64,000 bases of DNA from Chloroflexota bacterium (GTDB lineage: Bacteria > Chloroflexota > Anaerolineae > Anaerolineales > Villigracilaceae), in assembly GCA_016235425.1 (NCBI GenBank), contig JACRLC010000005.1, positions 42,272-106,271 of the forward strand. Reading direction: 5' to 3'. A program made the position numbers and the translations under genes. Below are positions 6,931 through 30,461 of the stretch, one piece after another; the stretch's first letter is position 1; each line of letters opens with the position of its first letter. Below the pieces are notes generated by a model. The model was not told the origin of the DNA. It ran no database searches and saw nothing but the letters and a program-made list of their open reading frames with translations.

Positions 6931-6944
6931 GGGAGGTGACGGCC

Positions 6945-7466
6945 ATGCCCAGGGTCATCTATTGTGACATCACGCGTTGCGATAATTGCCGCGAGTGTGT
7001 GACAGCCTGTGAGCGCGAGCATTATGGGTGTAACCACATGTTCGTGCAAAAAATTGACGAAAGTTACGTTCCCGTGAATTGCAGGCATTGCGATGAAAGC
7101 CCCTGCGTGGAAGTCTGTCCAACCGGTGCGATGGCGCGGATAAGCGAAGACGTGGTGGCGATTGCTTCGATGAAGTGCATCGGTTGCCAGCTCTGTACAA
7201 TTGCCTGCCCGTTTGGCGCGGTATGGTTCGACGCATTGAATAAGGTCTCGCGAAAATGCGACTTGTGCCAGAGCCGCCTCGAACACGGACTCATCCCTGC
7301 GTGTGTGACGGCTTGTTCACCCCAGCACGCGTTGCAGTTCGGTGAATTTGAAGAGATGTTGAGCACTGCGCACGAGCGCGGTTTGCAGACCGTGATCACG
7401 CGCGCCAGTGGGGACCATGGAACGATCTTGAGCATCCCTGTGAATTGGAACGGGAAAGGAGTGTGA
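6945..7466 (+). CDS. HycB/CooF-like ferredoxin subunit of hydrogenase
   Basis: This 173-residue polyferredoxin carries four [4Fe-4S] clusters: CDNCRECVTAC, CRHCDESPCVEVCPTG, CIGCQLCTIACPFG and CDLCQSRLEHGLIPACVTAC. In formate hydrogenlyase and CO-oxidising complexes this subunit moves electrons from the dehydrogenase to the membrane hydrogenase. I chose the ATG at 6945 because GGGGAGG lies seven bases upstream. The alternative GTG at 6936 overlaps that ribosome site. It is the first gene of a seven-gene plus-strand operon. The formate or CO dehydrogenase that would feed it is not in this window. Confidence 0.9.
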   Translation: MPRVIYCDITRCDNCRECVTACEREHYGCNHMFVQKIDESYVPVNCRHCDESPCVEVCPTGAMARISEDVVAIASMKCIGCQLCTIACPFGAVWFDALNKVSRKCDLCQSRLEHGLIPACVTACSPQHALQFGEFEEMLSTAHERGLQTVITRASGDHGTILSIPVNWNGKGV

Positions 7467-7467
7467 C

Positions 7468-9138
7468 ATGGCAGTTGCAACACAATCCCGCATCCCACCG
7501 GATTTGATGTTGAACCTGCAAAAAGGTGGAATCAAGCTCGAAACCGAGCGCGATGACATGCTGATTGCAAGCGTGCCAAAAGAGCAGTTGACGGAGGCAG
7601 TGCAACACATCCGTGACGAACTGGGCGGGAGATTTATCACGTCTGCAGGCATGGACATGCGTTCGCTGAATGGCCGCTTTCGGGTGAGCCAGTTGTTCGG
7701 TCTGGATGCCGATAAGACCTTCCTCATCCTGTTCAGCGATGTTGATCCTTTGGATGCGGCCATTCCCACGATTACCGGGTTGATCCCTGGTGCAAACTGG
7801 GCTGAAAGGGAGGTGAGAGACCTCATCGGCGTGACGCCGGTTGGGCATCCCGATCTGAGGCGTTTGGTTCTGCCAGATGACTGGCCGAATAACCTGTATC
7901 CGCTCCGCAAGGATTTCAAAGTGGATGAGCGTCCGCCTGCCGCGCCGGAGAACAAGGTTCGCATCAATATCCCGCCGAAGGATGCGAGTGTTCTGCCGAT
8001 TGGCCCGTTCTTCCCGACACTGGAAGAGCCGGTGTTCATCAATCTTTTCGTCCACGGGGAAGAAATTGTGGGCATGGATTATCGTGGTTTCTACGGCCAT
8101 CGCGGCGTGGAAAAACTCGGCGATTCGGATTTGACCTACCAACAGGTTCCGTATCTCGCGGAACGAATATGCGGAATATGAGGGTGCGTTCACAGTACGT
8201 GTTACTGTCAAGCAATCGAAAAAGCCGCTGGAATCGTAGTCCCTCATCGCGCGCGTTACATCCGCACAATACTGCTCGAATTGGAACGTATCCACAGCCA
8301 CCTGCTCTGGATCGGACTGGCCTGTCACTTCATCGGGTTCGATACGCTCTTCATGCAGGCCTGGCGCATTCGAGAACCCGTGATGTGGTTAACGGAATAC
8401 CTGACGGGGAATCGCAAGACGTATGGCATGAACAAGATCGGCGGCGTGGCGCGTGACCTGCCAGCCGACGCGATGGAACGCATCCTGCCAGTCATTGACA
8501 AGATCGAAGCCGAGGCCGTACGCGTGGTGGATGCGATCCTCGAAGATTCGTCTCTCCGCGCCAGGCTCGAAGGTGTGGGAATTCTCTCCACCGAGGACGC
8601 GCGGGCTTATTGTGTGATCGGTCCTACGGCACGCGGCTCAAGTCTCGACATTGACGCGCGCCGCGATCATCCCTTTGCCGCGTACGATGAACTGGACTTT
8701 GAAGTCTGCGTTGAGAAGGGTTGCGACATTTGGGCGCGCACGCTTGTGCGAATCCGCGAGCTGCTCGAATCCATCAAGATGACGCGGCAGGCTTTGAAGC
8801 AGATGCCTGATGGCCCGGTGATGGCGGACTTCGGCGAGATCAAACCGTACCAAATCGGCGTCAGTTCGGTGGAAGCGCCGCGCGGAGAAGTCCATCATTA
8901 TGCAGTGACCGGGCCGGGCAACCGTCCGTTTCGCTGGCGGGTGCGCGCGCCGTCCTACAATAACCTGCAATCCATCCCGGCCATGCTGCGCGGCGCAGTG
9001 ATCGCCGATGCGCCCATCAGCGTCGGCAGTCTTGACCCTTGTTTCTCGTGTACGGAGAGAATGTCTGTGATTGATGTGGATAGCGGTGAAGTGAAGGTTT
9101 ACAAACGGGAAGAGTTGCTCGCGAGGAAGAAGTTGTAG
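7468..9138 (+). CDS. Group 4 [NiFe] hydrogenase large subunit (HycE-like) with in-frame TGA, candidate selenocysteine
   Basis: The same reading frame runs from the ATG at 7468 to the TAG at 9138 (556 residues, close to HycE), broken only by TGA at 8179-8181. The N-terminal part (about residues 1-150) is the NuoC/30-kDa-like domain and the rest is the NuoD-like catalytic domain. The TGA falls in the L1 nickel ligand motif: ERICGI-[TGA]-GCVHSTCYC, where HycE has RVCGICGFAH. It therefore replaces the second (bridging) Cys of L1. The frame after it is fully conserved (GIVVPHRARYIRTILLELER). The L2 motif DPCFSCTERM near the C-terminus is intact, showing a real hydrogenase rather than NuoD. A hairpin directly after the TGA fits the bacterial SECIS rules. 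The alternatives are a TGC-to-TGA mutation or a sequencing error. Confidence 0.8.
8182..8214 (+). promoter_or_regulatory. SECIS-like hairpin directly downstream of the hydrogenase TGA
   Basis: The upper stem ACAGUA (8192-8197) pairs perfectly with UACUGU (8203-8208) around the loop CGUGU. A C-C mismatch, UU/AA pairs, a bulged G and UGC/GCA pairs extend the helix down to 8185-8214. The apical loop begins 16 bases after the TGA and has G at its second position. Both features satisfy the published bacterial SECIS pattern as I know it. Confidence 0.55.
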
Positions 9139-9222
9139 TGGAGTCCGAAGCGTTGCCCTGAGCTTGTCGAAGGGTCTCCCGGCTTCGGCGCGCCGACGAC
9201 AGGAGTCGCCGGACTCCAACTT
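9139..9222. repeat. Repeat-bearing spacer in the hydrogenase operon
   Basis: GGAGTCC (9140-9146) and GGACTCC form outer arms around a family B repeat, CCCTGAGCTTGTCGAAGGG. No gene is present. It separates the large-subunit gene from the HycF-like gene within one operon. Confidence 0.5.
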
Positions 9223-9239
9223 CAATTGGAGAGTGAACC

Positions 9240-9776
9240 ATGCTGAAACATACAATCTCCGAACTCAAGGAAGCGTTGATCTGCCTCGAAGCAGGGCAGG
9301 TGACGCTTCCATATCCTTTTGCGCCGCATCCGCCGGACGAGAATTTTCGCGGCAAGCCCGTCTTGAACACGCGCAAGTGCATGAGTTGCGGCGCGTGCGG
9401 CAACGCCTGTCCATCGCGGCTGATCACGATCTCGGACAAAGACGGCATTCGCACCCTGCACTTTGAACTGACTCGTTGCACCTATTGCGGCAACTGCCGC
9501 GATGCCTGTCCGCAGGAGGCGATTGAGTTGACGTCGCAGTTTGAGCTGTCCACGGCTGTGCCTGCCGATTTGGCGATCAACGCCGAATTCAAACTGGTGA
9601 CCTGCCGTGAGTGCGGCGCGGTCATCGGCACGGAGAGGCAGGTCGATCTCGTCCGCGAGAAATTGGGCGCGAGTCAATTGGAACTTCCCGACACCTCCTA
9701 TCTCGACCTCTGTATCGCCTGCAAGCGAAAAGCCTTCATTCACTCTCACGCGCTCATGCTGGAGGTGACCCCATGA
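9240..9776 (+). CDS. HycF/NuoI-like ferredoxin subunit
   Basis: The 178-residue protein has two [4Fe-4S] motifs, CMSCGACGNACPS (about residues 44-56) and CTYCGNCRDACPQ (about 80-92), as in HycF, EchF and NuoI. A C-terminal extension holds further Cys pairs, CREC and CIAC, possibly a zinc ribbon. This subunit would pass electrons from the polyferredoxin to the small subunit. The ATG follows GGAGAG, and its stop overlaps the next gene's start by four bases, indicating translational coupling. Confidence 0.9.
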   Translation: MLKHTISELKEALICLEAGQVTLPYPFAPHPPDENFRGKPVLNTRKCMSCGACGNACPSRLITISDKDGIRTLHFELTRCTYCGNCRDACPQEAIELTSQFELSTAVPADLAINAEFKLVTCRECGAVIGTERQVDLVREKLGASQLELPDTSYLDLCIACKRKAFIHSHALMLEVTP

Positions 9777-10225
9777 ACGCCCTCGATTGGTGCTTCAAGA
9801 AATCCATCTGGGTTTATCACGTCAACGCGGGTTCGTGCAACGGATGCGACATCGAGATCCTCGACGCGCTCACGCCTTATTACGATGTTGAACGCTTCGG
9901 GATTCGACTCGTCCACACGCCCCGTCATGCAGATGCTCTCCTCGTGACCGGACCAGTTACCCGTCAAGTGAGGGAGCGTTTGATCAGACTTTACGAATCA
10001 ACGCCGGACCCGAAGCTGGTCATCGCAGTTGGCAGTTGCCCCACTGGAGGAGGTATCTGGCACAACTCCTATGCGACTCTCGGTGGGCTGGGCAACGTTC
10101 TGCCTGTGAACATTTACATCCCTGGTTGTCCGCCGCGCCCTGAAGCGATTTTGTATGGCGTGGCGCAGGCGCTGGGACTCGTGCCACAGCAAGTCAAGGC
10201 GCAGGAGTTTGTGGAGGTGACATGA
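9773..10225 (+). CDS. HycG/NuoB-like hydrogenase small subunit
   Basis: This 150-residue subunit carries the proximal [4Fe-4S] cluster of a group 4 hydrogenase. Cys ligands appear in GSCNGCDIE (about residues 20-28), VGSCPTGGG and PGCPPRPEAI, the classic NuoB/HycG pattern. It pairs with the HycE-like large subunit, at the interface facing the membrane arm. The ATGA overlap with both neighbours indicates tight operon organisation. Confidence 0.93.
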   Translation: MNALDWCFKKSIWVYHVNAGSCNGCDIEILDALTPYYDVERFGIRLVHTPRHADALLVTGPVTRQVRERLIRLYESTPDPKLVIAVGSCPTGGGIWHNSYATLGGLGNVLPVNIYIPGCPPRPEAILYGVAQALGLVPQQVKAQEFVEVT

Positions 10226-11163
10226 ACATTGCCCAAGTTTCTCTCGCCATTCTTTACACCCTCATCTTCCCCGGCTTCCTGTTCACCGCGGTGGTGGGAC
10301 TTTTGCTTACGTGGGTTGACCGCAAAGTGGCGGCCATTGTGCAAAGCCGTATCGGGCCGCCGTGGTTCCAGCCGTTCGCGGACATTGGCAAACTGCTGGC
10401 AAAGCGGATGATGGTGCCGCGCGGCGCGCAGAGGGTGGGGTTCATTGCCGCGCCGTTGCTTTCCATCATCGGCGCGACGCTCGCTTCGGTGATTGTCTTT
10501 CGCGCACTGTTCAATCCGTTTACAGGTTTTATGGGTGACCTGATCGTGCTGATCTATCTCTCCACTTTGCCCGCCATTTCCTTGATCATCGGCGGCGCGT
10601 CGTCGCGCAGTCCGTTTGGCGCGATTGGGGCAAGCCGCGAAATGAGCATGGTGCTGGCGTATGAAGTGGGATTCCTGCTGGCGCTGATCACGGCTGTGGT
10701 GAAGGCCGGTTCGATCCGTTTTATGGAGATTCACATTTATCAAACCCTGAACGGTTCGATTGCCTGGAGCCTTTCGGGCATTCTCGCATTGGCCGTCTTC
10801 CTGCTGTGTATGCAGGCAAAACTCGGCTTCCTTCCATTTGACATCAGCGAAGCGGACACGGAGTTGATCGGCGGGCCGCTGGCTGAATATTCGGGCGTTG
10901 GGCTGGCGTTGTTCAAGCTCGCGCGCGCCATGATGTTCTTCTTCCTGCCCGTGATGGCCGTTTTGATCTTCCTCGGCCCCGTGAATGGGACGATTCTCTC
11001 GATACTTGCTTTTATCGTCAAATTGCTGGCGGTGCTCGTTTTGCTGATCCTCATCAAGACCACCCACGCGCGTCTGCGACTCGACCAGGCCCTGAATTTC
11101 TTCTGGGCCAAGGTCGCGGTGACAGGTTTGATCGGGCTTGGCCTGGCGCTGGTTGGACTTTAG
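10222..11163 (+). CDS. HycD/NuoH-like membrane subunit
   Basis: The 313-residue protein has about eight membrane segments and NuoH/HycD family motifs: VDRKVAAIVQSRIGPPWFQPFADIGKL near the N-terminus (given here as the region of residues 31-57), SREMSMVLAYEVG, and FDISEADTELIGG. It anchors the hydrogenase soluble arm and connects it to the ion-translocating antiporter subunits encoded next. Its start overlaps the previous stop by four bases. Confidence 0.92.
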   Translation: MNIAQVSLAILYTLIFPGFLFTAVVGLLLTWVDRKVAAIVQSRIGPPWFQPFADIGKLLAKRMMVPRGAQRVGFIAAPLLSIIGATLASVIVFRALFNPFTGFMGDLIVLIYLSTLPAISLIIGGASSRSPFGAIGASREMSMVLAYEVGFLLALITAVVKAGSIRFMEIHIYQTLNGSIAWSLSGILALAVFLLCMQAKLGFLPFDISEADTELIGGPLAEYSGVGLALFKLARAMMFFFLPVMAVLIFLGPVNGTILSILAFIVKLLAVLVLLILIKTTHARLRLDQALNFFWAKVAVTGLIGLGLALVGL

Positions 11164-11168
11164 TCTCA

Positions 11169-11371
11169 TGTCATTGCGAGGCGTTCTTCCCTGCACCGAA
11201 CGCCCCGCACCTTTCATCCCCGATCCAATGAAGGTGCGGGGACGCAGGACGGTGCGCCGAAGCAATCCCCAATTAAATGGCGAAGGCTTCTCAATGAGAT
11301 TGTTCCGTTTGACGGGAGATTGCTTCGCAAAGCTTGCCCTGAGCCTGTCGAAGGGTGCGCTCGCAATGACA
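11169..11371. repeat. Large inverted repeat element (family C) in the hydrogenase operon
   Basis: The outer arms TGTCATTGCGAGG and GCGCTCGCAATGACA and the inner arms CGAAGCAATC and GGAGATTGCTTCG flank a core with a family B copy. Related elements are at 26617-26698, 44895-44974 and 55689-55858. It sits between two genes of one operon, so it would be transcribed as a long hairpin. Confidence 0.8.
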
Positions 11372-11390
11372 TATCAAAAAGGACATGCCT

Positions 11391-12803
11391 ATGTTAGCCA
11401 TTGCAACTTTCGGCATTCCCATCCTCGGCTCGCTGTTGACCCTGTTAGCCGACCGCGTCAACAACTTCCTCCGCAATGCCGTGGCCGCATTGACGGTCGC
11501 GGCGACGCTGGCTTCTGCGTTTTTGCTCATTCCCATCGCGAAGGAAGCGCACACAATTATGCTGGGGCCATCCACCATTCCAGGCTTTGGCTTCAACTTC
11601 ATCATTGACGGGCTGGGTGTGTACGTGGCGATCATGGCCGCGTTCATCGGCCTGCTCATCGTCTTTTATTCGATGGGCTACATGCAGAATTACACCCATC
11701 TCGGCGAGTACTATTTCCTCGTCGTACTGTTCATCGGCGCGATGATGGGGCTTGTCCTTTCGGCCAACCTGCTGCTGATCTACATCTTCTGGGAAGTGAC
11801 GGCCATTTGCTCGTGGCGCCTGATCGGTTTCTTCCGCGACCCGCAGCACCTCAAGAGCGCCGACACTGCCCTGCTGATGACAGTCTTCGGTTCGTTCTGT
11901 ATGCTGGTTGGCATGGAGATGGTCTGGCATGAGACCGGCACATTGACCATTGCCGCGATCCGCGGGCGTAACGTCAGTGACATGGCAATGTTGTTGATGT
12001 TTATCGGCATCCTCGCTAAATCCGCCCAGGTTCCTTTGCAGATCTGGCTTCCCGCGGCGGGCGTCGCTCCTTCACCGGTGACGGCTTTGCTCCACGCGGC
12101 GGTGCTGGTTGTGATTGGCGTCTTTGCCTTCGCGCGCATTTTCATCGGCGCGTTCAGTCTGCCGCCGAACTGGCAGACCATCACCTCGGTCGTCGCGACG
12201 ATCACGATTTTTGTCGCAAGCGGAGCGGCGCTTGTGGAGAACAATGCCAAGCGTATTCTCGCGTATTCGACGTTTGGTCAACTGGCTTACGTTTATCTTG
12301 GCTTTGCCAGCATGACCACCGTCGGCATTGTCGGTGGATTGGTCTTCCTGCTCGCACACAGCCTCGCCAAAGCCGGACTCTTTTTGGCAGTGGGCATTGT
12401 CGAGCACAAGACGCACACGAAGGATATCCGCGAACTCGGCGGCATGATCCGCGTGATGCCTGTCACTGCGGTTGCGTTCATCCTCTGCGCGCTGACCATC
12501 ATCGGCTTCCCGCCGTCGGCTGGTTTTGTGGGCAAGTTCATGATCATCCTCGGCGCGGTGGAAGGCGGCAAGACCGTGTTCGCCGCACTGGCTGTCTTTG
12601 GTGCGTTGATGAGCATCGCTTACATGATCAGGCTTTTCAACGCGGTTTTTCTTGGCCCGAATCCTTCGCACAATGTTAAAGAAGGGACCACGGGCATGGT
12701 CGTGACAGTGACTCTTTTTGCCGTGCTTTCCCTGCTGGCAGGCATCATCGCCGCGCCGCTGCTGGATGTTGTCAACGCGCTGGTGAGTCAGATGTTTGGA
12801 TAA
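11391..12803 (+). CDS. Antiporter-like proton-translocating subunit (NuoL/M/N, HyfB/F family)
   Basis: The 470-residue protein has about 14 membrane segments and the Proton_antipo core: a Glu in FYSMGY...LIYIFWEVTAICSW, KSAQVPLQIWLPAA, LHAAVLVVIGVF, ENNAKRILAYSTFGQLAYV and HSLAKAGLFL. These are the Lys/His/Glu residues of the ion channel in complex I-like antiporters. I start it at the ATG at 11391, with AAAAAGG at a proper distance; the ATG at 11385 is too close to it. Membrane-bound group 4 hydrogenases use one or two such subunits to couple H2 production to ion pumping. Confidence 0.9.
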   Translation: MLAIATFGIPILGSLLTLLADRVNNFLRNAVAALTVAATLASAFLLIPIAKEAHTIMLGPSTIPGFGFNFIIDGLGVYVAIMAAFIGLLIVFYSMGYMQNYTHLGEYYFLVVLFIGAMMGLVLSANLLLIYIFWEVTAICSWRLIGFFRDPQHLKSADTALLMTVFGSFCMLVGMEMVWHETGTLTIAAIRGRNVSDMAMLLMFIGILAKSAQVPLQIWLPAAGVAPSPVTALLHAAVLVVIGVFAFARIFIGAFSLPPNWQTITSVVATITIFVASGAALVENNAKRILAYSTFGQLAYVYLGFASMTTVGIVGGLVFLLAHSLAKAGLFLAVGIVEHKTHTKDIRELGGMIRVMPVTAVAFILCALTIIGFPPSAGFVGKFMIILGAVEGGKTVFAALAVFGALMSIAYMIRLFNAVFLGPNPSHNVKEGTTGMVVTVTLFAVLSLLAGIIAAPLLDVVNALVSQMFG

Positions 12804-12806
12804 CGA

Positions 12807-12892
12807 CTCTCACCCCTAGCCCCTCTCCCTCCTTCGACTACGCCGCCAACGGACACGGCGGCTCCGCTCAGGACGAAGGGAGAGGGGGAGGA
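12807..12892. repeat. Compound palindromic repeat (family A with nested insert)
   Basis: The outer family A arms CCCCTCTCCCT and AGGGAGAGGGG enclose an inner hairpin around CGCCGCCAACGGACACGGCGG and TTCGACTACG / CGCTCAGGACGAA-type sequence. It lies between two antiporter genes. Confidence 0.7.
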
Positions 12893-12901
12893 AGTGGAAC
12901 C

Positions 12902-15295
12902 ATGAACACTCTCCTGCTTTACCCAATTGCCGTGCCCATCCTCGTCGGGTTTGTATGCTTGTTGACGCCGCGCCAGTTTCGAGGTCCGCGTGAAGCGTTG
13001 ACGGTGTTGACCGCGCTCGCCTCGCTCGCGATGTCCGTCTTCATTTTCATGCAACCGACTCTCTACATCCACATCCCGTGGCTGACGCTCACAGGGAATC
13101 TCACACTCGCGTTCGACTTTCAGTCTGCGGCGTATGCGCGGCTCACATTGCTGGTCGTTTCGAGTTTCGGTTTGCTGGCCGCGCTATTTTCGATTCCATT
13201 CCTCGCGAAGCATCCGCGCCACAACGAGTATTATGCCTATTTCCTGATGGCGCTTGGCGTCACTTCGGGTGCGGTACTTTCTGAAAATCTCTTGCTCCTG
13301 CTCTTCTTCTGGGAACTGCACGGATTCCTGCTCTTCCTGATGGCAGGCATCAATGGGGACTCAGCCATTCCCGCTTCCACGCGGACTCTCATCCTGGCCG
13401 GGTTCGGTGACCTGACCCTGCTCTTCGGCCTCGTTCTTCTCTGGACCCAGACCGGATCATTCTCAATTAACATTCTCTCCGCCCAGGCCATTTCCGTTAA
13501 CTCCTGGCTGATGGGTGTTGCCTTCGTTTTGATGGCCTTTGGATCTTTTGTGAAAATCGGCGTGATGCCTCTGCACAGTTGGATCACAGCGATTTCGACC
13601 GAAACGCCGATGACCGTGATGGGATATTTCACGTCGCTCGATAAGATGCTCGGCTTTTACCTGCTCACGGTGCTGGCGCTCAACATTTTCGACCTTTCCG
13701 GGTGGGGTGGCTGGTTCCTGATGACGATGGGTGTAATCACGTTGTTCGGCGGCGTGCTGATGGCGATGGTGCAAAGCGACTTCCGCAAGATGCTGGCGTT
13801 CCATTCGGTCTCGCAGATTGGGTACATGGTTTTGGGAATCGGCACAGGGACGCCGGTGGGAATCATCGGCGGGCTGTTCCATCTCGTGAATATGATCATC
13901 GTGAAGGGTGCATTGTATCTATGCGGCGGGTCGGTTCAACATGCCACGGGCAAAACTAAGTTCTCCGAAATGGGCGGACTCGCCAAAGCCATGCCGTGGA
14001 CGTTCGTTTCAACTTTGATTGCATCGCTCGCGATTGCGGGTGTGCCGCCGTTGAACGCCTTTGTTTCCAAGTGGCTGGTGTATCAGGGAATCATCGAACA
14101 CGGCGGCGCGGCATTCCCGATTTATCTGCTGGTTGCCATGTTCGGTTCCGCGTTGACGCTGGCGTCTTTCATGAAACTGCTCTATTCGATGTTCTGGGGC
14201 GACAGGCCGCAGGAACTCGCGGACGTCAAAGAATCCCCGTGGGCGATGACCCTGCCGATCTTTGTGCTGGGTTTGATCGCAGCGGGATTTGGCATCTTCT
14301 ATCGCTGGCCTGTGGAAACTTTGCTCGCGCCGATTCTCGATCAACCCATTCGGTCAATTGGTCTGTGGCAATCGGGTCTCGCCGCGATATTAATGATCGT
14401 CAGCCTGTTGATCGGGCTGGTCATTTACTGGGCGGGCCGCCCGCGCAGGAATGTCGAAACGGAAGTGTTCCTCGGCGGCGAAGCGCTCGATCCCGAAATC
14501 TATCGCGTGCCCGGAACGCATTTTTACGGTCCCGTCAAAGGCATGAACGGACTCAGGCAGGTCTATGCCGCGGCGGATCGCGGCGCGCTTGACCTTTACC
14601 TGCTGAGCTACCGCGTCATCAAGAGCGCTTCGGATTGGATCTATCGCTACATTGACCAGGCGCTGGCGGAGTTTTACCAGGAAGTGATCCCTGCGTTGTG
14701 GTCGTTGATCGGGCAAATCCTGCGGGTGCTGAATACAAAGATGGTGCTCACCCGTATCCTGTGGGCGCTCTACGCGGTCGGCTTGATCGGAATCTTCTTC
14801 ATGCCGAATCAATACGAAATCGTCACGTTGGCGCGCATCATCGCCTGCATCGGCATGATTGGCTGGGCGTTCCTCGCCTGGGTGGAGAGAAACCTCACGC
14901 GCATGTTGGTCCTGGCAACCACCAGCCAGCTTGGCTTCGTCGTGCTGGGCGCGTCACTCTCTTCCGATGTGGCGATCTCCTACCTGTTGACTGGCAGTGT
15001 CGCCATCGCCGTGCTGTTCCTCGTCGCATATCTTATTCGCCGGACACTGCACACCGACAAGATCGAGCAGATGGGCGGCGTGGCCGGACGAATGCCCTGG
15101 GCGTTCTTGTTGTTCGTCCTTGCGGCTTTGTGGCTTTCGGGCCTGCCGCCGTTTGGCAGTTTCTTCAGCAAATTCTTGCTCGGTGTGGCCGCCAGCGAGA
15201 TCAGTCCCTTGCTGACGATAGCCATCACCGGCACAGCCATCATGACGCTGAGTTATTTGCTCCGGCCAATCGGCAGGTTCCTGCGCGCGAAATAA
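12902..15295 (+). CDS. Large antiporter-like subunit, NuoL-type with a C-terminal partial second module
   Basis: The 797-residue protein begins with a full antiporter module (about residues 1-500). Its key regions are LLLLFFWELHGFLLF, KIGVMPLHSWI, QSDFRKMLAFHSVSQIGYM and HLVNMIIVKGALYLCGGSVQH. After a polar stretch (about 500-620), the membrane segments resume. Residues about 660-797 read like the middle of another antiporter: RMLVLATTSQLGFVV and LPPFGSFFSKFLL. This looks like a fusion of NuoL-like and truncated NuoN/M-like parts. It is the last gene of the operon, followed by a strong hairpin. The role inferred is ion translocation coupled to the hydrogenase. Confidence 0.88.
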   Translation: MNTLLLYPIAVPILVGFVCLLTPRQFRGPREALTVLTALASLAMSVFIFMQPTLYIHIPWLTLTGNLTLAFDFQSAAYARLTLLVVSSFGLLAALFSIPFLAKHPRHNEYYAYFLMALGVTSGAVLSENLLLLLFFWELHGFLLFLMAGINGDSAIPASTRTLILAGFGDLTLLFGLVLLWTQTGSFSINILSAQAISVNSWLMGVAFVLMAFGSFVKIGVMPLHSWITAISTETPMTVMGYFTSLDKMLGFYLLTVLALNIFDLSGWGGWFLMTMGVITLFGGVLMAMVQSDFRKMLAFHSVSQIGYMVLGIGTGTPVGIIGGLFHLVNMIIVKGALYLCGGSVQHATGKTKFSEMGGLAKAMPWTFVSTLIASLAIAGVPPLNAFVSKWLVYQGIIEHGGAAFPIYLLVAMFGSALTLASFMKLLYSMFWGDRPQELADVKESPWAMTLPIFVLGLIAAGFGIFYRWPVETLLAPILDQPIRSIGLWQSGLAAILMIVSLLIGLVIYWAGRPRRNVETEVFLGGEALDPEIYRVPGTHFYGPVKGMNGLRQVYAAADRGALDLYLLSYRVIKSASDWIYRYIDQALAEFYQEVIPALWSLIGQILRVLNTKMVLTRILWALYAVGLIGIFFMPNQYEIVTLARIIACIGMIGWAFLAWVERNLTRMLVLATTSQLGFVVLGASLSSDVAISYLLTGSVAIAVLFLVAYLIRRTLHTDKIEQMGGVAGRMPWAFLLFVLAALWLSGLPPFGSFFSKFLLGVAASEISPLLTIAITGTAIMTLSYLLRPIGRFLRAK

Positions 15296-16531: not shown

Positions 16532-18001
16532 TCAGCAAAACTGTTTCAACACATCCACCGTGTTTCCATCCGCGTCGCGGATGATGACTTCGAGCGGCAT
16601 CTTGCCTGGCAAGGAATGGGTGGCGCAGCCGAAGCACGGGTCGTAGGCGCGGAAGGCCATTTCAATCATGTTCAAGGTCGGCTCGGTGACTACCGTCCCT
16701 TTCTGGATGAGTCCGCGCGCGGCCTTGTTGATGGACATGCTGATGGGCGCGTAGTTGTTCGTGGTGCCGACGATGAGGTTGACCTTGGTCAGCACACCGC
16801 GCTCATCGGTGGTGTAGTGGTGGGTGAGTGTGCCGCGCGGCGCTTCGACGATGCCCACGCCTTCAGTTGGTGTTTCGGTGGGAATGGTGTGGAAATTCGG
16901 GGATGTGATTTCGGGGTCGGTGGCGAGTTCCACCCAGCGCTCGGCCGCGTAGAGCAGTTCAACGAGACGCGCCCAATGGGTGGCTAATCTTTGATGAACG
17001 GGCTTCCCGCCGAGGGTCGTAAAGAAGCGTTCGTATTCTTCCTGTGCGCGAGGCGTAGCCATTCCATCCGCCGCATTGACTCGTGACAGCGGCGTGGCGC
17101 AGTAAACGCCCGAATCTTTTCCATCGGCGAATCCCTTCCAGCCAACCTTCTTGAGATATGGGAATTTGAGATACGTCCACGGCTCCACGTGTTCAGCGAT
17201 GTGTTCGGCATAATCCTTCGGCGCGTATTTGACGAATTCCTTCCCGTCTGGGTCAACCACGCGGACTTTGCCATCGTAGAAGTTGATTTTGTTGTTTTCG
17301 TCCACCATGCCCATGTAATAGGTGTGGTGGGTGTAGATGTCGCCGAGGATCAGATCCACGTAGGCTTTGTTGCCGAGCACGATGTCGTTGAAGAGTTTGA
17401 GCGAGAATTGGCCGAACTCAACTGCCCAGTGTCCCATGTCTTCGATTTCTTTGCGCTGTTCCTCGGTGATGCCTTTGGTCAAGCCGCCAGGAATGGATGT
17501 GCATGGATGCACCTTCCGCCCGCCAATCATCTCAACGACAGTGTGTCCCGCTTTGCGCGCCTGAATGACCTTGCCCGCGATTTCGAGACCAACCTTGTGA
17601 ATAACGCCGAGGATGTTTCTCTCGGCGACGGGCGCGTCGGGGCCCATCACAAAATCGGGGCCGCCAAGCGCGTAAAAGTGGGTGGCATGGTCTGTGACGT
17701 AGAACGCCATGTAAAGCAGTTCGCGCAGGAGTTTGGCCGTGCGCGGCGGGTCCACGTGATAGACCATGTCCGCGGCTTTGGCGGCGGCCATGTGATGCGC
17801 TTCGGGGCACACGCCGCAGATGCGGTTGGTGAGAAGCGGCATTTCCTCGACGGGCCTGCCAACGCAGAATCGTTCGAAGCCGCGTAGTTCGGGGATTTGG
17901 AAATAGGTGTTGGCGACGCCGCCTTCCTTGTCGAGGAAAATTTCGATTTTGCCGTGACCTTCCAGGCGGGTAATTGGGTCTATGGTGATTCGTTGTGTCA
18001 T
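16532..18001 (-). CDS. mvhA: F420-non-reducing-type [NiFe] hydrogenase large subunit (group 3c)
   Basis: The 489-residue subunit holds the NiFe active site. L1 is RICGVCPEAHH (about residues 58-68) and L2 is DPCFGCATHSL near the C-terminus, with all four Cys present. The C-terminal tail after the L2 His is about 25 residues, the part a maturation protease would remove. In MvhADG-HdrABC complexes this enzyme splits H2 and feeds electrons through MvhD to HdrA for flavin-based bifurcation. Order and spacing with mvhG, mvhD and hdrABC match that complex. Both L1 Cys are encoded by TGC here, unlike the TGA in the group 4 large subunit of the same window. Confidence 0.93.
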   Translation of the reverse strand: MTQRITIDPITRLEGHGKIEIFLDKEGGVANTYFQIPELRGFERFCVGRPVEEMPLLTNRICGVCPEAHHMAAAKAADMVYHVDPPRTAKLLRELLYMAFYVTDHATHFYALGGPDFVMGPDAPVAERNILGVIHKVGLEIAGKVIQARKAGHTVVEMIGGRKVHPCTSIPGGLTKGITEEQRKEIEDMGHWAVEFGQFSLKLFNDIVLGNKAYVDLILGDIYTHHTYYMGMVDENNKINFYDGKVRVVDPDGKEFVKYAPKDYAEHIAEHVEPWTYLKFPYLKKVGWKGFADGKDSGVYCATPLSRVNAADGMATPRAQEEYERFFTTLGGKPVHQRLATHWARLVELLYAAERWVELATDPEITSPNFHTIPTETPTEGVGIVEAPRGTLTHHYTTDERGVLTKVNLIVGTTNNYAPISMSINKAARGLIQKGTVVTEPTLNMIEMAFRAYDPCFGCATHSLPGKMPLEVIIRDADGNTVDVLKQFC

Positions 18002-18035
18002 GGTTGTCTCCTGTAATGCAAATTGGCAATTTGCG

Positions 18036-19031
18036 CTACGCCTTCTCCCATGCGGGCTTGCCAGCCTTCAACAACGAGCCAGCAAGATTGAAACGATAGA
18101 ACTGTCCCGTTGGGTCAACGATTCCATCAAGGATGCGGTCAATCTCTTCGGGGTCGTTGCTGTCAATGACGGATGCAAAGGCTGAGATCAGCCGTGCGCC
18201 GTAATCAATGACTCCCTCGGCGGGGCCATAGCAACCGATGCACTGCGCGCCTGCCGTTGGACAACGAGCATTGCACCCGCTTCTCGTCGCGATGCCGTTG
18301 CATGGAATCCCTTGTTCGAGCAGGCACAGCTCTGGGTCAACTTCCACGCCCCAAATCCTCTTGAAGGATTTGACCATCTTGATGTTGCGCGCCCGTTTAC
18401 ATTCGTCGCACACGGTCGAATTGCCTGCGCCGATGACAGTTCCCTTCGGCGGCAGTTCGGCTTTGCCTTGAAGCACCTGCACAACCAAATCAATCACGGC
18501 CGCGATCTGGTGCGACTCGGGCGGACAGCCTGGCATGTAGTAGTCCACATCCACGACCTGGTCGAGGGTCTTGAGTACAGGCAAAATCTTCGGGATGTGG
18601 ATTTCGCCCTCAGGCACATCGTAGGATATCATCGGGTAGATTTGCTTCGGGTTGTCTGTGCTGATGGTGTTGAACGCCGTGGAGACAATCTCGCGCGAGT
18701 CGCTCAAGTTTGCCAGCCCAGGGATACATCCCTCGTTGGCGCACGAACCGAACGCGACGAGTATCTTGGATTTCCTGCGAAGGAGTTTGGCGATGTGCTC
18801 GTTCTCGTCGTTGCGGATGCCGCCGTTGAAGAGGGTGAGCAGGATCGAGCCATCCTCCATCGCTTCCACATCTTTGTATTTCGCGTCCATCGCGACGGGC
18901 CAGAAGACGACATCGAAGTTGGCGTCCACATCCAAAATCTTCTCGTGGATGTTCAACACGGCGATCTCACACCCGCCGCAGGAGGCCGCCCAATACATTG
19001 CGAATTTTGGCTTATTGCCGTTGACGGTCAT
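18036..19031 (-). CDS. mvhG: F420-non-reducing-type hydrogenase small subunit
   Basis: The 331-residue subunit carries three Fe-S clusters between the NiFe site and MvhD. The proximal cluster ligands are in YWAASCGGCEIAVLN (about residues 12-26), FGSCANEGCIPG and MPGCPPESH. Further Cys sets (CDECKRAR, CNARCPTAGAQCIGC) bind the medial and distal clusters. The start overlaps the end of mvhD by four bases. It lacks a twin-arginine signal, so the enzyme is cytoplasmic. Confidence 0.93.
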   Translation of the reverse strand: MTVNGNKPKFAMYWAASCGGCEIAVLNIHEKILDVDANFDVVFWPVAMDAKYKDVEAMEDGSILLTLFNGGIRNDENEHIAKLLRRKSKILVAFGSCANEGCIPGLANLSDSREIVSTAFNTISTDNPKQIYPMISYDVPEGEIHIPKILPVLKTLDQVVDVDYYMPGCPPESHQIAAVIDLVVQVLQGKAELPPKGTVIGAGNSTVCDECKRARNIKMVKSFKRIWGVEVDPELCLLEQGIPCNGIATRSGCNARCPTAGAQCIGCYGPAEGVIDYGARLISAFASVIDSNDPEEIDRILDGIVDPTGQFYRFNLAGSLLKAGKPAWEKA

Positions 19032-19522
19032 GCTGGCACCTCCTTAAGGTCCGGCGCAGGTTCATGGCTGGTTGGTCCGCTATCGTCAGGCGAGCGGCCG
19101 TTTGACCTGTACCAATTGAGTGGACCAAGCGCACGAATTTCTTCCACGAAGCTTCCGACCTCAGTGGCGAATTTCTTGCCTTCCGCCGCGCTAGCCCAAA
19201 CCAATTTCACGCGTTCGGGTTCCACGCCCAGGCCTTTAAGCGTGCGGCGGAGCAGATGGAAGCGCCGCAGGGCTTTGTAGTTCTGTTCCAGGTAGTGACA
19301 CTCGCCCGGATGACAGCCCGTAATCATCACCCCGTCCGCACCATTGGCCAGAGCCTTGAAGACGAAGGTGGGGTCGAGACGGCCCGAGCACATCAGGCGG
19401 ATCAGGCGGATATTGTGCGGATATTTCGTCCGGGATGTACCGGCCAGGTCGGCGGCGCGGTAGGAGCACCAGTTGCAGGTAAAGCCGATGATGACCGGGT
19501 CAAAGGTTTCGTTATTATTCAT
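19028..19522 (-). CDS. mvhD: Hydrogenase delta subunit, electron connector to HdrA
   Basis: This 164-residue protein carries the [2Fe-2S] cluster linking MvhAG to HdrA. The Cys residues lie in FTCNWCSYRAADLAG near the N-terminus, LMCSGRLDP, and GCHPGECHYLEQN. I start it at the ATG at 19520-19522 because GAGGAGG lies just upstream. The in-frame GTG at 19537 is inside that ribosome site. All Cys positions are encoded by Cys codons, so no selenocysteine is predicted here, in contrast to VhuD of some methanogens. Confidence 0.92.
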   Translation of the reverse strand: MNNNETFDPVIIGFTCNWCSYRAADLAGTSRTKYPHNIRLIRLMCSGRLDPTFVFKALANGADGVMITGCHPGECHYLEQNYKALRRFHLLRRTLKGLGVEPERVKLVWASAAEGKKFATEVGSFVEEIRALGPLNWYRSNGRSPDDSGPTSHEPAPDLKEVPA

Positions 19523-19533
19523 CTCATTCCTCC

Positions 19534-21534
19534 TCACGCGGGTACCGGCTCTTCGCCAACGTTCAGCAGCAGCAGGCCTTCGATCTGTGCGAAGATCTGC
19601 TCATTGCTGAAGCCTGTGCCGGTAATGGCGCCCGCTGGGCAGGCGGCTACGCAGGTTCCACAACCCTGGCACAAGGCCGCGTTAATCTCGGTGACCATAC
19701 GCTCCTCATGGAACGAAATGGCGTTAAATGGGCACAGTCCATTGCAAATGCGGCATCCGGAGCATTTTTCCTCGATCACGCTGGCGCGAACCGGCTCAAG
19801 GGCAATCTCCTTGGCGTGAATCTTGCCGAGCGCGCGCGCGGCTGCGGCCGCTCCTTGCGCGACGCTGGCCGGGATGTCCTTCGGGCCCTGGACGCAGCCG
19901 GCGATAAGGATGCCCTCTGTCATGGTAGCGACCGGATCCAGCTTGGGATGCTTCTCGATGAACCAGCCGTCCGCGCTGCACGAGAGGCCGAACCGCTTGG
20001 CGGTTTCTTTGGCATCGTGACGTGGTTCGAGCGCGACCGAGAGGATGACCATGTCCAGCGGGATACGCATTTGCACGCCGACAAGTGTGTCTTCAACCTG
20101 GGCGATGAGCTTGCCTTGTTCTTCGGGCGTTCTGGGTGCATCGTTTATTTCAGCGACTTTGCCCCGGATGAAGTGTGTACCTTCCTCCAGCACGCGCTGG
20201 TAGAACTCTTCATAACCCTTGAAGGGAGTTCGCATGTCGATGTAGAAGTTGTACACCTCGGCGCCAGTGCGCTCGTGGACCAGGTGGGCAAACTTCAGCC
20301 CCTGCATACAGCAGATTACCGAGCAATATTCATTGTAGTTCTTATCGCGGCTCCCAACACAGTGGACGATTCCGACTGCCTTCGGCTTGCTCTTGCCATC
20401 GCGGAGGAGAATCTCCCCGTTGGTAGGGCCGGACGCGTTGCACATGCGTTCGAACTCGATGCTGGTGAGTACGTTTGGCAGGCGTCCATAGCCGTATTGT
20501 GCCATTCGATGCGCGTCGAAGGTTTCATAGCCGGTTGCGAGGACGATGTTGCCGACGTTGACCGTGATAATCTCGTCTTCCTGGTTGAAGTCAATAGCAC
20601 TGGTAGGGCAGAACTTCTCGCAGGCCTTGCACGTTCCCTTGATGTAGTAGGTGCAGTTCGCGCGGTCAATGACCGGATACCTGGGTACGGCTTGAGCAAA
20701 GGGCGTGTAGATCGCTTTGCGCGTTCCCATGCCCGCCTCGAAGACATCATCCACAACTTTTTTCGGGCACTTCTCCCAGCAGATGCCACAGCCCGTGCAC
20801 AGATCAGTCTTGACGTAGCGGGACTTCTTGCGGATGGTCACTGAGAAGTTGCCAACGTAGCCATCCACCTTTTCGACCTCGCTCCAGGTCAACAACTCGA
20901 TATTGGGATGCGTTCCCGCCTGGACCATCTTCGGTGTCAGGATGCACGCCGCACAGTCCAGGGTGGGGAAGGTCTTGTCGAACTGTGCCATGTGTCCACC
21001 GATGGAGGGTTCGCGTTCCACCAGATACACCTTGTACCCGGCGTCCGCGATCTCCAACGCGGCCTGAATGCCCGCAATCCCTCCGCCGACAACCAGTGTG
21101 TCGGGATGGATGGAGACCTTCAGCGGTTCGAGGGCCTCATGGTGCAGTACACGCTCCACCCCGCCAGATACAACGGCCATGGCCTTGGCGGTTGCCATAT
21201 CCTTGTCGGTATGCACCCACGACACCTGCTCGCGGATGGAGACCAGTTCGCACAAGTAGGGATTGAGCCCAGCACGTTTACAGGCTGTGCGGAATGTGTT
21301 TTCGTGCAGATGCGGCGAGCAGGCCGCCACAACTACGCGTGTCAGTCCCAGTTCCTTGATGTCCTTCTCGATCAGTTCCTGACCGAGGCTGGAACACATG
21401 AACTTATACTCGCGGCCAACGACAACCCCACGGTGCTTGAGACGTGCTGCCGCCCATTCAGCCACCTCCTGGACGTCCACCGTACCCGCGATGTTCGTGC
21501 CGCAGTGACAGACATAGACTCCTATTTTTTCCAT
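19534..21534 (-). CDS. hdrA: Heterodisulfide reductase subunit A, bifurcating flavoprotein
   Basis: HdrA holds the FAD thought to bifurcate electrons between ferredoxin and a high-potential acceptor. The 666-residue product has an N-terminal Cys motif (YVCHCGTNIAG) and a Rossmann FAD fold at GGGIAGIQAALEIADAGYKV. The conserved GGHMAQFDKTFPTLDCAACI follows, with an inserted ferredoxin region (CTGCGICWEKCP, CKACEKFCP) and C-terminal clusters (CSGCRICNGLCPF, CQGCGTCVAACP). The ATG at 21532-21534 is preceded by AAAGGAG. Upstream in-frame codons lie in the hdrB end. It sits between mvhD and hdrB, as expected for an Mvh-Hdr complex. Confidence 0.95.
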   Translation of the reverse strand: MEKIGVYVCHCGTNIAGTVDVQEVAEWAAARLKHRGVVVGREYKFMCSSLGQELIEKDIKELGLTRVVVAACSPHLHENTFRTACKRAGLNPYLCELVSIREQVSWVHTDKDMATAKAMAVVSGGVERVLHHEALEPLKVSIHPDTLVVGGGIAGIQAALEIADAGYKVYLVEREPSIGGHMAQFDKTFPTLDCAACILTPKMVQAGTHPNIELLTWSEVEKVDGYVGNFSVTIRKKSRYVKTDLCTGCGICWEKCPKKVVDDVFEAGMGTRKAIYTPFAQAVPRYPVIDRANCTYYIKGTCKACEKFCPTSAIDFNQEDEIITVNVGNIVLATGYETFDAHRMAQYGYGRLPNVLTSIEFERMCNASGPTNGEILLRDGKSKPKAVGIVHCVGSRDKNYNEYCSVICCMQGLKFAHLVHERTGAEVYNFYIDMRTPFKGYEEFYQRVLEEGTHFIRGKVAEINDAPRTPEEQGKLIAQVEDTLVGVQMRIPLDMVILSVALEPRHDAKETAKRFGLSCSADGWFIEKHPKLDPVATMTEGILIAGCVQGPKDIPASVAQGAAAAARALGKIHAKEIALEPVRASVIEEKCSGCRICNGLCPFNAISFHEERMVTEINAALCQGCGTCVAACPAGAITGTGFSNEQIFAQIEGLLLLNVGEEPVPA

Positions 21535-21550
21535 AAGATTTCTCCTTTGA

Positions 21551-22417
21551 TTACGAGGTTGCAAGGACCGGCAGGGCGGAAACCAATTCCTTGCCAATCC
21601 CCAGTTTCTTGGGAGCAATGCCCAACGCCAGGCCAACCAGTTGTGTGAAGTACAGGACGGGTATCGAGTAATTCGTCCCAAACTCCTGGTTGACCGATTG
21701 CTGGTAGCATTCCAGATTGACCTGGCACATGGGGCAGGCTGTCGCGATCACGCTTGCTTGGCGGTCCACGGCGGATTGAAGAAGGTTCTTCACCATGGTC
21801 AGCGCGGCGGGCCGGCTCGAGATGATCAACGAGCCGCCGCAACACCGCGTCTTGAGGGGATAGTCAACGGGAGTCGCGCCGATGGCGGTCAGCAATTCCT
21901 CGAAGAAGAGAGGATGCTCAATGTCCATGTGATCTTTTTTCGGCCTGAGGATCTGACAGCCGTAATAGGGTGCGACGCGAACTCCTTCCAGCGGATGGGT
22001 CACGTTGTTCTTGATCTCCTCGGTGCCGATGTCCTCCATGTAGACTTCTATGAGGTGTCGCACGTTGATTTGCCCCGAAAAATGCAGGCCGTCTTCTTCC
22101 AAGGCATAGTTGATGTGCTCGGCCAGGTCGGGATCCTTTTTCATGTGGGCGACGGTAAAGTACATGTTCTTGTAACAGGCACTGCATGGCGCAACCAGAT
22201 CCAACCCCGTTTTTTCGGCGATGGCGAGGTTGCGGGCGGATAGTGTGTAGGCCAGCAGTTCGTCAATGTGGAAGTAGGTCGTCGAGCCGCAACAGTTCCA
22301 GTCCTCGATTTCGTGGAGTTTCATTCCGAGTTTCTTTGCGGTCTCGAGGGCGGAGACATGGTAGCCAATGGCCAGCTTTTCGAGCGAACAGCCGGGGAAG
22401 TAGGCAAACTCTTTCAT
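21551..22417 (-). CDS. hdrB: Heterodisulfide reductase subunit B
   Basis: The 288-residue subunit has two CCG domains: CSLEKL...WNCCGS...CSACYKN and YYGCQIL...TRCCGGS...CPMCQVN. These bind the two noncubane [4Fe-4S] clusters that reduce a disulfide in HdrB. The natural disulfide in a bacterium without coenzymes M and B is unknown. Its start overlaps hdrC by four bases. Confidence 0.95.
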   Translation of the reverse strand: MKEFAYFPGCSLEKLAIGYHVSALETAKKLGMKLHEIEDWNCCGSTTYFHIDELLAYTLSARNLAIAEKTGLDLVAPCSACYKNMYFTVAHMKKDPDLAEHINYALEEDGLHFSGQINVRHLIEVYMEDIGTEEIKNNVTHPLEGVRVAPYYGCQILRPKKDHMDIEHPLFFEELLTAIGATPVDYPLKTRCCGGSLIISSRPAALTMVKNLLQSAVDRQASVIATACPMCQVNLECYQQSVNQEFGTNYSIPVLYFTQLVGLALGIAPKKLGIGKELVSALPVLATS

Positions 22418-22992
22418 TCGACGCCTCCCATGGGAATGATCCTGCGGACCATGCGCTTGAAATTGTCGAGGCGCTTGATCTGGGCAGGAAGCAATGGAAG
22501 CCTGCCCTTTATCATCAGCTCGGTGGCGTTCTGTATCTCACGGAAGAACTCGCCCAATTTGAAACTGAAGATGTAGGAAGGCGCCAGGATCGGCTCGAAA
22601 GTCCGTCCGGTTCGAACGATCATCTTTGCAAAGGCTTCTGAAAAAGACGGTCCGATCAAGCCTTCCTTGTATTTGTTCTTCCAAATCGAATACCGTTGCA
22701 GCGCGTACATCAGTTCTGTGATGCTGATCCCCTGGGGACATCGCACGGTACACTGATAGCAGGAAGCGCAATACCAGAATGTATTACTTTCCATTACCTG
22801 GTCTTTTAGCCCTGCGTTGACCATGGCGATAATTTGGCGCGGGGTGTAATCCATGTAGGCTGCCACCGGGCAGGAGCCGGAGCAGGTCCCGCATTGGACG
22901 CACATCGGGAACGGGTTTCCGTCCGCCGCGTGCAAAAGGCCGGAAACTTCCCGCATGAAGGTGAAAGTGTAGGTTTCGGATGCTTCTGTCAT
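22414..22992 (-). CDS. hdrC: Heterodisulfide reductase subunit C
   Basis: The 192-residue iron-sulfur protein has two [4Fe-4S] motifs, CVQCGTCSGSCPV and CASCYQCTVRCPQG, and passes electrons between HdrA and HdrB. It is the first Hdr gene after the signalling cassette, with about 65 bases between it and the response regulator gene, and is probably in the same transcript. Confidence 0.94.
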   Translation of the reverse strand: MTEASETYTFTFMREVSGLLHAADGNPFPMCVQCGTCSGSCPVAAYMDYTPRQIIAMVNAGLKDQVMESNTFWYCASCYQCTVRCPQGISITELMYALQRYSIWKNKYKEGLIGPSFSEAFAKMIVRTGRTFEPILAPSYIFSFKLGEFFREIQNATELMIKGRLPLLPAQIKRLDNFKRMVRRIIPMGGVE

Positions 22993-28693: not shown

Positions 28694-28707
28694 ATCTTTC
28701 TCTCCTG

Positions 28708-29676
28708 TTACGACACACCTGCGGCCTGTTTGACCTTTTCAGTGAGAGCGGGGACGAGGTCGAAAATATCGGCCGTCGTTCCATATTTCGCCACATTGAA
28801 GATTGGCGCATTGGGATCGGTATTGATGGCGATGATCGTATCGCTCTCGTTCATGCCCTCCACATGCTCCGGCGCGCCGCTGATGCCCAGTGCCAGATAC
28901 ACTTTGGGTCTGACGTGCTTGCCCGATTTGCCAACGAGGCATGAGGCCGGCAGCCAGCCCTGGTCCACGATTGGGCGCGAGGCGCTGACCTGTCCGCCGA
29001 GCGCGGTGGCGAGTTCCCTGGCGATCTCGATATTGTCCTTGGTCTGGATGCCGCGCCCAACGGAGATCAGGAGCGGCTCTTTGGCGATGTCCACATCCCC
29101 GGCCTCTGGTTCGATGTAATGCTTGAGCGTAACGCGCAGATCGTCCAAGGATGGAATGGCGGTGGTTTCAATGGCAGGCGCTTGATCACTTTGTCCCTCT
29201 TCCAACTTATAGCCGCCGGGAGCCATCGTTACCAAAGCAGTAGGGGAGGGTAGGTCTCCTTCTGCCATGATCTTCCCGCCGCAGATCTGGCATACAAATT
29301 TTCCATTGCTGTTCAGTGTGCGGCATGAACTTACCAATGGCAGGGACAGTTTTACGGAAAGTCCGCCCGCGATGTCCGCGCCGATGGTAGTATGACCGAA
29401 CAAGACCGCGCGCGGCGATTGTTCGCGGATGAGGCTGGCAAGCGTGACTTGATACGCCTCTGAAGTAAATTCAGCCAGCGCGGGATGGTCTGCATACAAT
29501 ACGCGATTGGCAGAGAAATTCCCTGCCAGTTCCTGAGCGTTGTGGCCGAGCAGTATGGCAACAACTTTGCCGCCGGTTCCTTGAGCTAAGGCCCGTGCCG
29601 CGGCCAGCATCACATACGAAATATCCGCGACCTGTCCGCGCAAGTGCTCGATGACGACGAAGATATCCTGACTCAT
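28708..29676 (-). CDS. etfA: Electron transfer flavoprotein alpha subunit
   Basis: The 322-residue subunit has an N-terminal ETF domain and the C-terminal FAD-binding domain: SRPIVDQGWLPASCLVG, KSGKHVRPKVYLALGISGAP and AINTDPNAPIFNVAKYG. I start it at the ATG at 29674-29676 (MSQDIFVV), which follows GAGGAGG. Upstream in-frame sequence overlaps etfB. With EtfB it forms an FAD/AMP or bifurcating FAD/FAD heterodimer. Which type cannot be decided from the sequence by eye. Confidence 0.94.
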   Translation of the reverse strand: MSQDIFVVIEHLRGQVADISYVMLAAARALAQGTGGKVVAILLGHNAQELAGNFSANRVLYADHPALAEFTSEAYQVTLASLIREQSPRAVLFGHTTIGADIAGGLSVKLSLPLVSSCRTLNSNGKFVCQICGGKIMAEGDLPSPTALVTMAPGGYKLEEGQSDQAPAIETTAIPSLDDLRVTLKHYIEPEAGDVDIAKEPLLISVGRGIQTKDNIEIARELATALGGQVSASRPIVDQGWLPASCLVGKSGKHVRPKVYLALGISGAPEHVEGMNESDTIIAINTDPNAPIFNVAKYGTTADIFDLVPALTEKVKQAAGVS

Positions 29677-29686
29677 ATCCGCCTCC

Positions 29687-30451: not shown

Positions 30452-30461
30452 GTTCCATCTC

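Follow-up and report, generated by a model that had tools for sequence, protein, structure and literature searches.

An in-frame TGA at the second cysteine of the nickel-binding L1 motif predicts selenocysteine in a formate-hydrogenlyase-type hydrogenase

The 64,000-nucleotide stretch of the genome of an uncultured Chloroflexota (Anaerolineales) bacterium analysed here (the window; GenBank assembly GCA_016235425.1, contig JACRLC010000005.1, forward-strand positions 42,272 to 106,271) encodes a hydrogenase large subunit whose reading frame holds a single inner stop, a TGA at codon 238. Pfam recognised Complex1_30kDa, Complex1_49kDa and the L1 part of NiFeSe_Hases on the 556-residue product, and the best solved relative was HycE from the formate hydrogenlyase of Escherichia coli (7z0s_E, E 8e-138, query residues 28-550). 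Residue 238 aligned with the second cysteine of the HycE motif RVCGICGFAH, the N-terminal nickel-binding motif L1, which reads RICGI-U-GCVH here when the TGA is taken as selenocysteine (Sec, U). The gene thus encodes the fused HycE-like large subunit, with L1 (TGA for its second cysteine) and the C-terminal motif L2, by which the group 4, formate-hydrogenlyase type is recognised. The classical [NiFeSe] enzymes are recognised by Sec at the first L2 cysteine (UxxC), and both cysteines of L2, DPCFSC, are encoded by TGT in this gene. NCBIfam searches with the hydrogenase protein (P0001) matched 27 models, with none of the 25 shown exceeding its own cut-off; the HysA selenium-hydrogenase model NF045518 covered residues 225-281 alone, with a score of 36.7 bits where its cut-off is 780, and was rejected. 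We consider it highly probable that translation puts selenocysteine at the TGA and that selenium would thereby bridge Ni and Fe in a formate-hydrogenlyase-type hydrogenase. Sequence comparisons point to what is likely a real selenoprotein family of such hydrogenases, in which L1 would carry Sec as CxxU (the predicted Ni-Fe bridge) or as UxxU.

An orthologue search over 61 genomes (60 relatives and the source genome itself, G000) gave as the five closest orthologues the gene itself and those of G001 (81% identity), G031 (77%), G024 (77%) and G020 (75%). Four of these five genes (G000, G001, G031 and G024) contain one inner TGA each, at the identical codon in the DNA, and the gene of G020 contains none, with TGC at this position. 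The motif was readable in 43 of 47 relative loci, with TGA in three (L021, L023 and L024) and TGC or TGT in 40; L1 was not shown in L053, L061, L062 and L064. Loci L021, L023, L024 and L022 correspond to L069, L072, L070 and L071, each pair being one gene obtained by two routes, with an identical 400-base stretch. As compared across these genes, the placement of the TGA is more than chance, since three further species have it at the identical codon.

In a gap-free alignment of these four genes, dN/dS was 0.07-0.15 over the 200 codons that precede the TGA and 0.06-0.12 over the 299 that follow, values that are rough because dS was near or above 1 in most pairs and synonymous sites were near saturation. 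Judged from these ratios, purifying selection is the same behind the TGA as before it. Conservation at the nucleotide level peaked at the TGA: the best-conserved 36-base segments start at -3 to -1 from it, with an identity of 0.97 against a mean of 0.64 over the 1,500 bases compared. Among the 500 codons compared, 103 of 349 conserved degenerate codons were identical in all four genes, and these were concentrated in positions +1 to +12 after the TGA (9/11, vs 94/338 outside; Fisher p = 0.0004), with codons +2 to +10 forming the longest identical run. A pseudogene, whether from a recent nonsense change of TGC to TGA or from faulty assembly, would require one base change from TGC or TGT, and the closest cysteine orthologue does have TGC. 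However, the presence of TGA at the same codon in four species, the low dN/dS beyond it, the frozen synonymous positions of the downstream hairpin described next and the 125 of 223 listed database proteins that end at the same residue make this explanation very improbable.

The conserved segment contains a candidate bacterial selenocysteine insertion sequence (SECIS) hairpin. The rules given for bacterial SECIS elements in the accessible part of PMC13188914 are a loop of 3-9 nt, a stem of 4-16 bp, G at loop base 1 or 2 and a spacing of 16-37 nt, and the window hairpin agrees with them, having a 5 nt loop, a 6 bp stem, G at loop base 2 and 16 nt between TGA and loop. We scored the same six pairs, allowing G-U, in 55 distinct contexts, after merging contexts of equal residues (L024 with L023, and L131, a gene described below, with L108). 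The complete stem was found in 4/4 distinct Sec contexts vs 1/51 Cys contexts, the exception being L034. Read separately, the merged context L024 also has the full stem, and thus all five Sec genes that were read have it.

The source genome encodes the machinery for selenocysteine, with selA (547 bits), selB (333), tRNA-Sec, the selC product (70), and selD (353) each above the family cut-off. ARAGORN called the tRNA as Sec with anticodon TCA, and selD (G000:C20:23311-24243, L018) has an in-frame TGA of its own (CAG-U-ASK). Across 14 control genomes, the same cut-offs were passed by selA in 1, selB in 2, tRNA-Sec in 5 and selD in 2. The three sister TGA genomes all have selA over the cut-off, as do 26 of the 47 genomes of the relative loci, and selB was over its cut-off in 5/5 genomes searched (G001, G024, G031, G555 and the Cys-form genome G020). 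A changed code or a suppressor tRNA that reads UGA as Trp or Cys has a close to negligible probability: a frame open under another code would appear alike, but TGA ends 10 of 25 genes checked in the window (located within 36-34,810), none of the 24 others has an inner stop, and the tRNA-Sec with its TCA anticodon is present.

These results bear on an earlier note on this DNA, made from the letters alone. Its reading of a 556-codon HycE-like frame split by a single TGA exactly at the second L1 cysteine was confirmed by re-reading and by the HycE alignment, and the continued conservation it saw up to L2 agrees with the intact DPCFSC and the dN/dS after the TGA. The hairpin it placed with its loop 16 bases after the TGA and G at loop position 2 stands by coordinates and by the bacterial rules. 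The note proposed a search for sel genes, and selA, selB, tRNA-Sec and selD are all present; it also asked whether TGA and TGC alternate among homologues or whether close homologues are all cysteine forms without a hairpin, and TGA does alternate with TGC or TGT while TGA and hairpin are kept together in other species. The gene shows features by which bacterial selenoproteins are recognised, namely an in-frame TGA aligned with a cysteine conserved in homologues and kept in other species, and selA, selB, selC and selD in the genome. The nonsense mutation or sequencing error that the note had kept as alternatives is contradicted by the conservation of TGA across species, and its interpretation as an L1 selenocysteine gains support from the conserved TGA and hairpin and from the machinery, with insertion and bridging predicted from homology.

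If the TGA were a true stop, the gene would make two separate polypeptides, the second started downstream, and a list of open reading frames does split it into 7468-8181 and 8281-9138, with an in-frame TTG at 8281. We give this arrangement very little probability, as the break would fall inside the L1 motif, 8281 is the first in-frame start after it, and the residues in between (GCVHSTCYCQAIEKAAGI...) are conserved and common to full-length Cys homologues. Proteins cut at this residue also occur in databases. When the 237 residues before the TGA were searched against 5.8 billion proteins, full-length Cys forms were too long, so that cut proteins were selected; length selection cannot make proteins stop at one residue. 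Of 1,959 matches, the 120 listed comprised 104 proteins ending in RICGI (one of them our own), 6 ending in ERI and 10 others. Searching with a profile built from the six ERI proteins produced 1,039 matches, and the 120 listed included 103 new proteins (81 ERI, 21 RICGI and 1 other). Altogether, the 223 listed proteins, our own included, end before L1 Cys2 (RICGI) in 125 cases, before L1 Cys1 (ERI) in 87 and elsewhere in 11. Records ending in RICGI include two with the source name KSB1 (P0108 and P0220), and those ending in ERI carry the names Armatimonadetes (P0111), Acidobacteriota (P0161), Desulfobacterota (P0189) and Deltaproteobacteria (P0223).

A scan for the pattern RI-TGN-GI-TG in 291 genomes from the phylum of G466 (locus L041, Armatimonadetes) gave matches in 63 genomes. 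TGA occupied the first position in four of the matches, of which the one in G555 is a hydrogenase gene and the other three were attributed to chance. This gene, L131, has TGA at both L1 cysteines (AERI-U-GI-U-GFIHST, or UxxU), and its L2 is DPCFSC. Its hairpin, ACAGCA-CGGTG-TGCTGT, follows the second TGA at a distance of 16 bases and the first at 25, with a fold z of -4.1, and the stem shows a compensatory U-A to C-G change relative to the window despite encoding a different peptide (HSTVCC vs HSTCYC). Two antiporter genes and a more distant HycI maturation-protease gene are found in the same 8 kb. L131 is the one Cys1-type (ERI) gene seen as DNA, and the records of the other ERI proteins do not tell UxxU from UxxC. 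With proteins cut at the same residue in several lineages and a UxxU gene, the L1-Sec finding is broader than the earlier note saw. Matches to L1-Sec-like patterns at L099, L110, L115 and L129 (G734), and in the viral-collection contig L142, had no hydrogenase context and were set aside as chance. The UxxU pattern was found in none of the viral contigs, and a plasmid collection gave 250 matching records, all below 60% identity, of which the 8 rows viewed were of the enterobacterial HycE type.

Sec and Cys forms were then mapped on a tree of 90 N-terminal sequences without the motif, from which two rows with long branches had been removed, together with 174 of 211 database proteins whose similarity to a retained one was 80% or more. 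Sec vs Cys took 8 changes (bootstrap 7-9), of which supported branches alone force 4, and three states took 12. As few changes were seen in 0/500 shuffles for any single group and in 0/200 for all three. The Cys orthologue L022, which lacks the stem, falls in a supported set with 8 CxxU rows (100/96), beside the clade of the window gene (99/90). L034 (L034:6665), the sole Cys gene with a full stem, pairs with a CxxU protein (96/88) and forms one set with 6 CxxU rows (99/95), and its genome has selA; this pattern would be expected if Sec had recently reverted to Cys, and the hairpin is possibly a relic SECIS. Exchange between Sec and Cys forms seems to have happened on several occasions, in directions that we infer, because the tree is unrooted.

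Several observations weigh against selenocysteine at this position. Folded alone, the 44-base window hairpin was no stabler than its shuffles (-8.5 kcal/mol, z -0.71), and neither were two sister hairpins (z 0.72 and 0.16). Set against the free-energy limit of -7.5 kcal/mol or lower in the accessible part of PMC13188914, the minimum free energies were -16 kcal/mol for L131, -7.6 for L070, whose minimum-energy fold differs, and -6.6 for the L069 44-mer, which is above the limit. An Rfam search at the hairpin gave no match, and the six-pair stem arises by chance in 32 of the 384 synonymous codings of the peptide HSTCYC. Given this shuffle-level stability and the chance codings, a single hairpin is weak evidence, and its conservation is what counts. 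Sec forms are also rare among the genomes scanned: they occur in 4/152 genomes of the family and in 1/291 Armatimonadota genomes, and the source genome alone had one in draws of 400 (phylum) and 396 (class) genomes, from which the three sister TGA genomes were absent. The phylum Acidobacteriota, scanned because the Cys1-type protein P0161 carries that name, had the Cys1 pattern in 0/396 genomes. The listed database proteins show where the protein ends and not which stop codon follows. Since the genome of the Cys orthologue, G020, also has selB, Sec is not required for this enzyme. Evans and co-workers reportedly changed all four ligands of E. coli Hyd-1 from Cys to Sec. According to the accessible part of a review, PMC9961374 (on Evans 2021), Sec at any active-site position of a [NiFe] hydrogenase cut H2 oxidation and gave no H2 production. 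The Hyd-1 substitutions likewise place Sec at active-site positions, but they are artificial, whereas the L1 Sec predicted here would be natural and conserved.

Under the favoured reading of the TGA as selenocysteine, the hairpin would be recognised by SelB carrying Sec-tRNA(Sec), which would place Sec at the UGA, and the 556-residue subunit would be matured like HycE, by homology. Structures of [NiFe] hydrogenases have L1 Cys1 as a terminal and L1 Cys2 as a bridging ligand. The Ni ligands would then be Cys235 (L1, terminal), Sec238 (L1, bridging), Cys525 (L2, terminal) and Cys528 (L2, bridging), an assignment of bridging and terminal roles that follows those structures; from homology we infer both the insertion of selenium and its bridging of Ni and Fe. 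The terminal, proton-accepting ligand of E. coli formate hydrogenlyase is L2 Cys531 (accessible part of PMC9474812), and the corresponding residue is Cys here. With this terminal L2 cysteine retained, selenium would act on the Ni-Fe core and not as a classical [NiFeSe] proton relay; conjecturally, a bridging selenium might serve as a softer donor, donating electrons, or ease recovery from oxidation. Sec could instead be inserted with a main role other than bridging, for example as a displaced side chain or a redox switch, which we regard as very unlikely because the three other ligands are kept and the aligned HycE cysteine belongs to the [NiFe]-binding set. A parallel for such a role is the Hydrogenophilus thermoluteolus hydrogenase, in which a terminal Cys displaced by Glu32 shifts to the bridging place (accessible part of PMC10214449).

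The classical [NiFeSe] hydrogenases (HysA of sulfate reducers; VhuA/VhuU and FrhA of methanogens) resemble the window gene in that a UGA-coded Sec replaces one Ni-binding cysteine. Their Sec lies in the UxxC of L2, as a terminal ligand. The UxxC motif, as given for FrhA and MvhA/VhuU in the accessible part of PMC13188914, differs from the arrangement here, where L1 is CxxU and L2 is DPCFSC. E. coli HycE (7z0s/7z0t), a group 4 [NiFe] enzyme, has in common with the window gene the fused 30-kDa/49-kDa architecture, L1 and L2, and HycB/F/G/D-like neighbours, but it has Cys at all four ligand positions, the second of which is TGA here.

The large-subunit gene lies in an operon-like group spanning 6936-15295, with HycB-, HycF-, HycG- and HycD-like genes and two genes for antiporter-like subunits around it (Table 1), the gene set by which group 4 hydrogenases of the formate-hydrogenlyase type are recognised. 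At L023 (3413-5485) and L024 (3413-5479), a formate dehydrogenase gene, fdhF, with its own in-frame TGA (HCARL-U-HSPTV; L-TGA-HSP) is located upstream of hycE, and L023 has a hycB-like gene between the two; each operon would thus likely encode two selenoproteins. The window, L021, L022 and the seven other loci searched gave no fdhF match (E 1e-5). With their Sec-type fdhF, L023 and L024 have the appearance of formate hydrogenlyase loci in which the electron path would both start and end at selenium, so that the family has at least two such members.

Table 1. Positions of the hydrogenase genes and motifs (window coordinates unless a contig is named)
Feature	Position	Strand	Basis or remark
HycB-like 4Fe-4S protein	6936..7466	+	Fer4_11
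HycE-like hydrogenase large subunit, TGA read as Sec: 556 residues, U238	7468..9138	+	Pfam, HycE alignment
L1 motif RICGIU, codons CGA ATA TGC GGA ATA TGA	8164..8181	+	
In-frame TGA at L1 Cys2, predicted selenocysteine	8179..8181	+	aligned with second Cys of HycE RVCGICGFAH
Candidate bacterial SECIS hairpin: 8192-8197 ACAGTA, loop 8198-8202 CGTGT (CGUGU), 8203-8208 TACTGT	8192..8208	+	
L2 motif DPCFSC, both Cys TGT	9034..9051	+	
HycF-like 4Fe-4S protein	9240..9776	+	best NCBIfam NF009053 (formate hydrogenlyase complex iron-sulfur subunit), below cut-off
HycG-like small subunit, Oxidored_q6 / NuoB family	9773..10225	+	domain match made on frame 9611-10225
HycD-like membrane subunit	10222..11163	+	NADHdh
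Antiporter-like membrane subunit	11385..12803	+	best NCBIfam hydrogenase 4 subunit D, below cut-off
Antiporter-like membrane subunit	12902..15295	+	Proton_antipo_M
L131, HycE-type UxxU hydrogenase	G555:C148:1-8000	-	motif at base 7005 of reverse complement

A second hydrogenase of the window, MvhA/VhuA-like (16532-18001, minus strand), uses TGC for all four of its L1 and L2 cysteines, in keeping with the TGC that the first reading had seen at its L1. It belongs to an Mvh-Hdr type cluster (16532-22992, minus strand) made up of hydrogenase large and small subunits, an MvhD-like gene and HdrA-, HdrB- and HdrC-like genes. Further along the minus strand (26711-31667), two electron-transfer-flavoprotein genes lie between two HdrD-like (CCG, 4Fe-4S) genes, one of which has a nitrate-reductase-gamma-like membrane domain. 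The window also encodes a 6S RNA (45131-45307, minus strand; Rfam RF00013, 65.9 bits).

To our knowledge, natural [NiFeSe] hydrogenases have been described with selenium in L2 only. Among the titles and abstract openings listed, a literature search found no hydrogenase with an L1 Sec, a result that is no proof of absence, as most subscription papers fall outside such a search. The May 2026 table of 119 selenoprotein families or subfamilies gives as hydrogenases FrhA and MvhA/VhuU (UxxC) and FrhD/VhuD, and in its accessible part we found no HycE-type entry among the prokaryotic selenoproteins (PMC13188914). The large subunits in that part of the table have UxxC only, which fits the earlier proposal that an L1 Sec would be a new type of site. 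We think it quite probable that these genes represent a widespread, unreported class with L1 selenium, bridging as CxxU in Anaerolineales, KSB1 and others and present as UxxU in Armatimonadota, and probably in Desulfobacterota and Acidobacteriota, with repeated exchange between Cys and Sec; KSB1 and the others enter this reading through protein records cut at the same residue. The UxxU form would, as part of the same reading, bind Ni through two selenolates, of which one would be terminal and the other bridging. Hydrogenases of this kind would be easily missed in genomes and metagenomes because gene finders would cut them in two. If the reading is true, evolution would have arrived at a new composition of the active site, with L1 selenium either bridging or doubled, in a type of enzyme that makes H2 from formate, and the Cys/Sec orthologue pairs would allow the effect of selenium in H2 catalysis to be tested apart from the L2 position.
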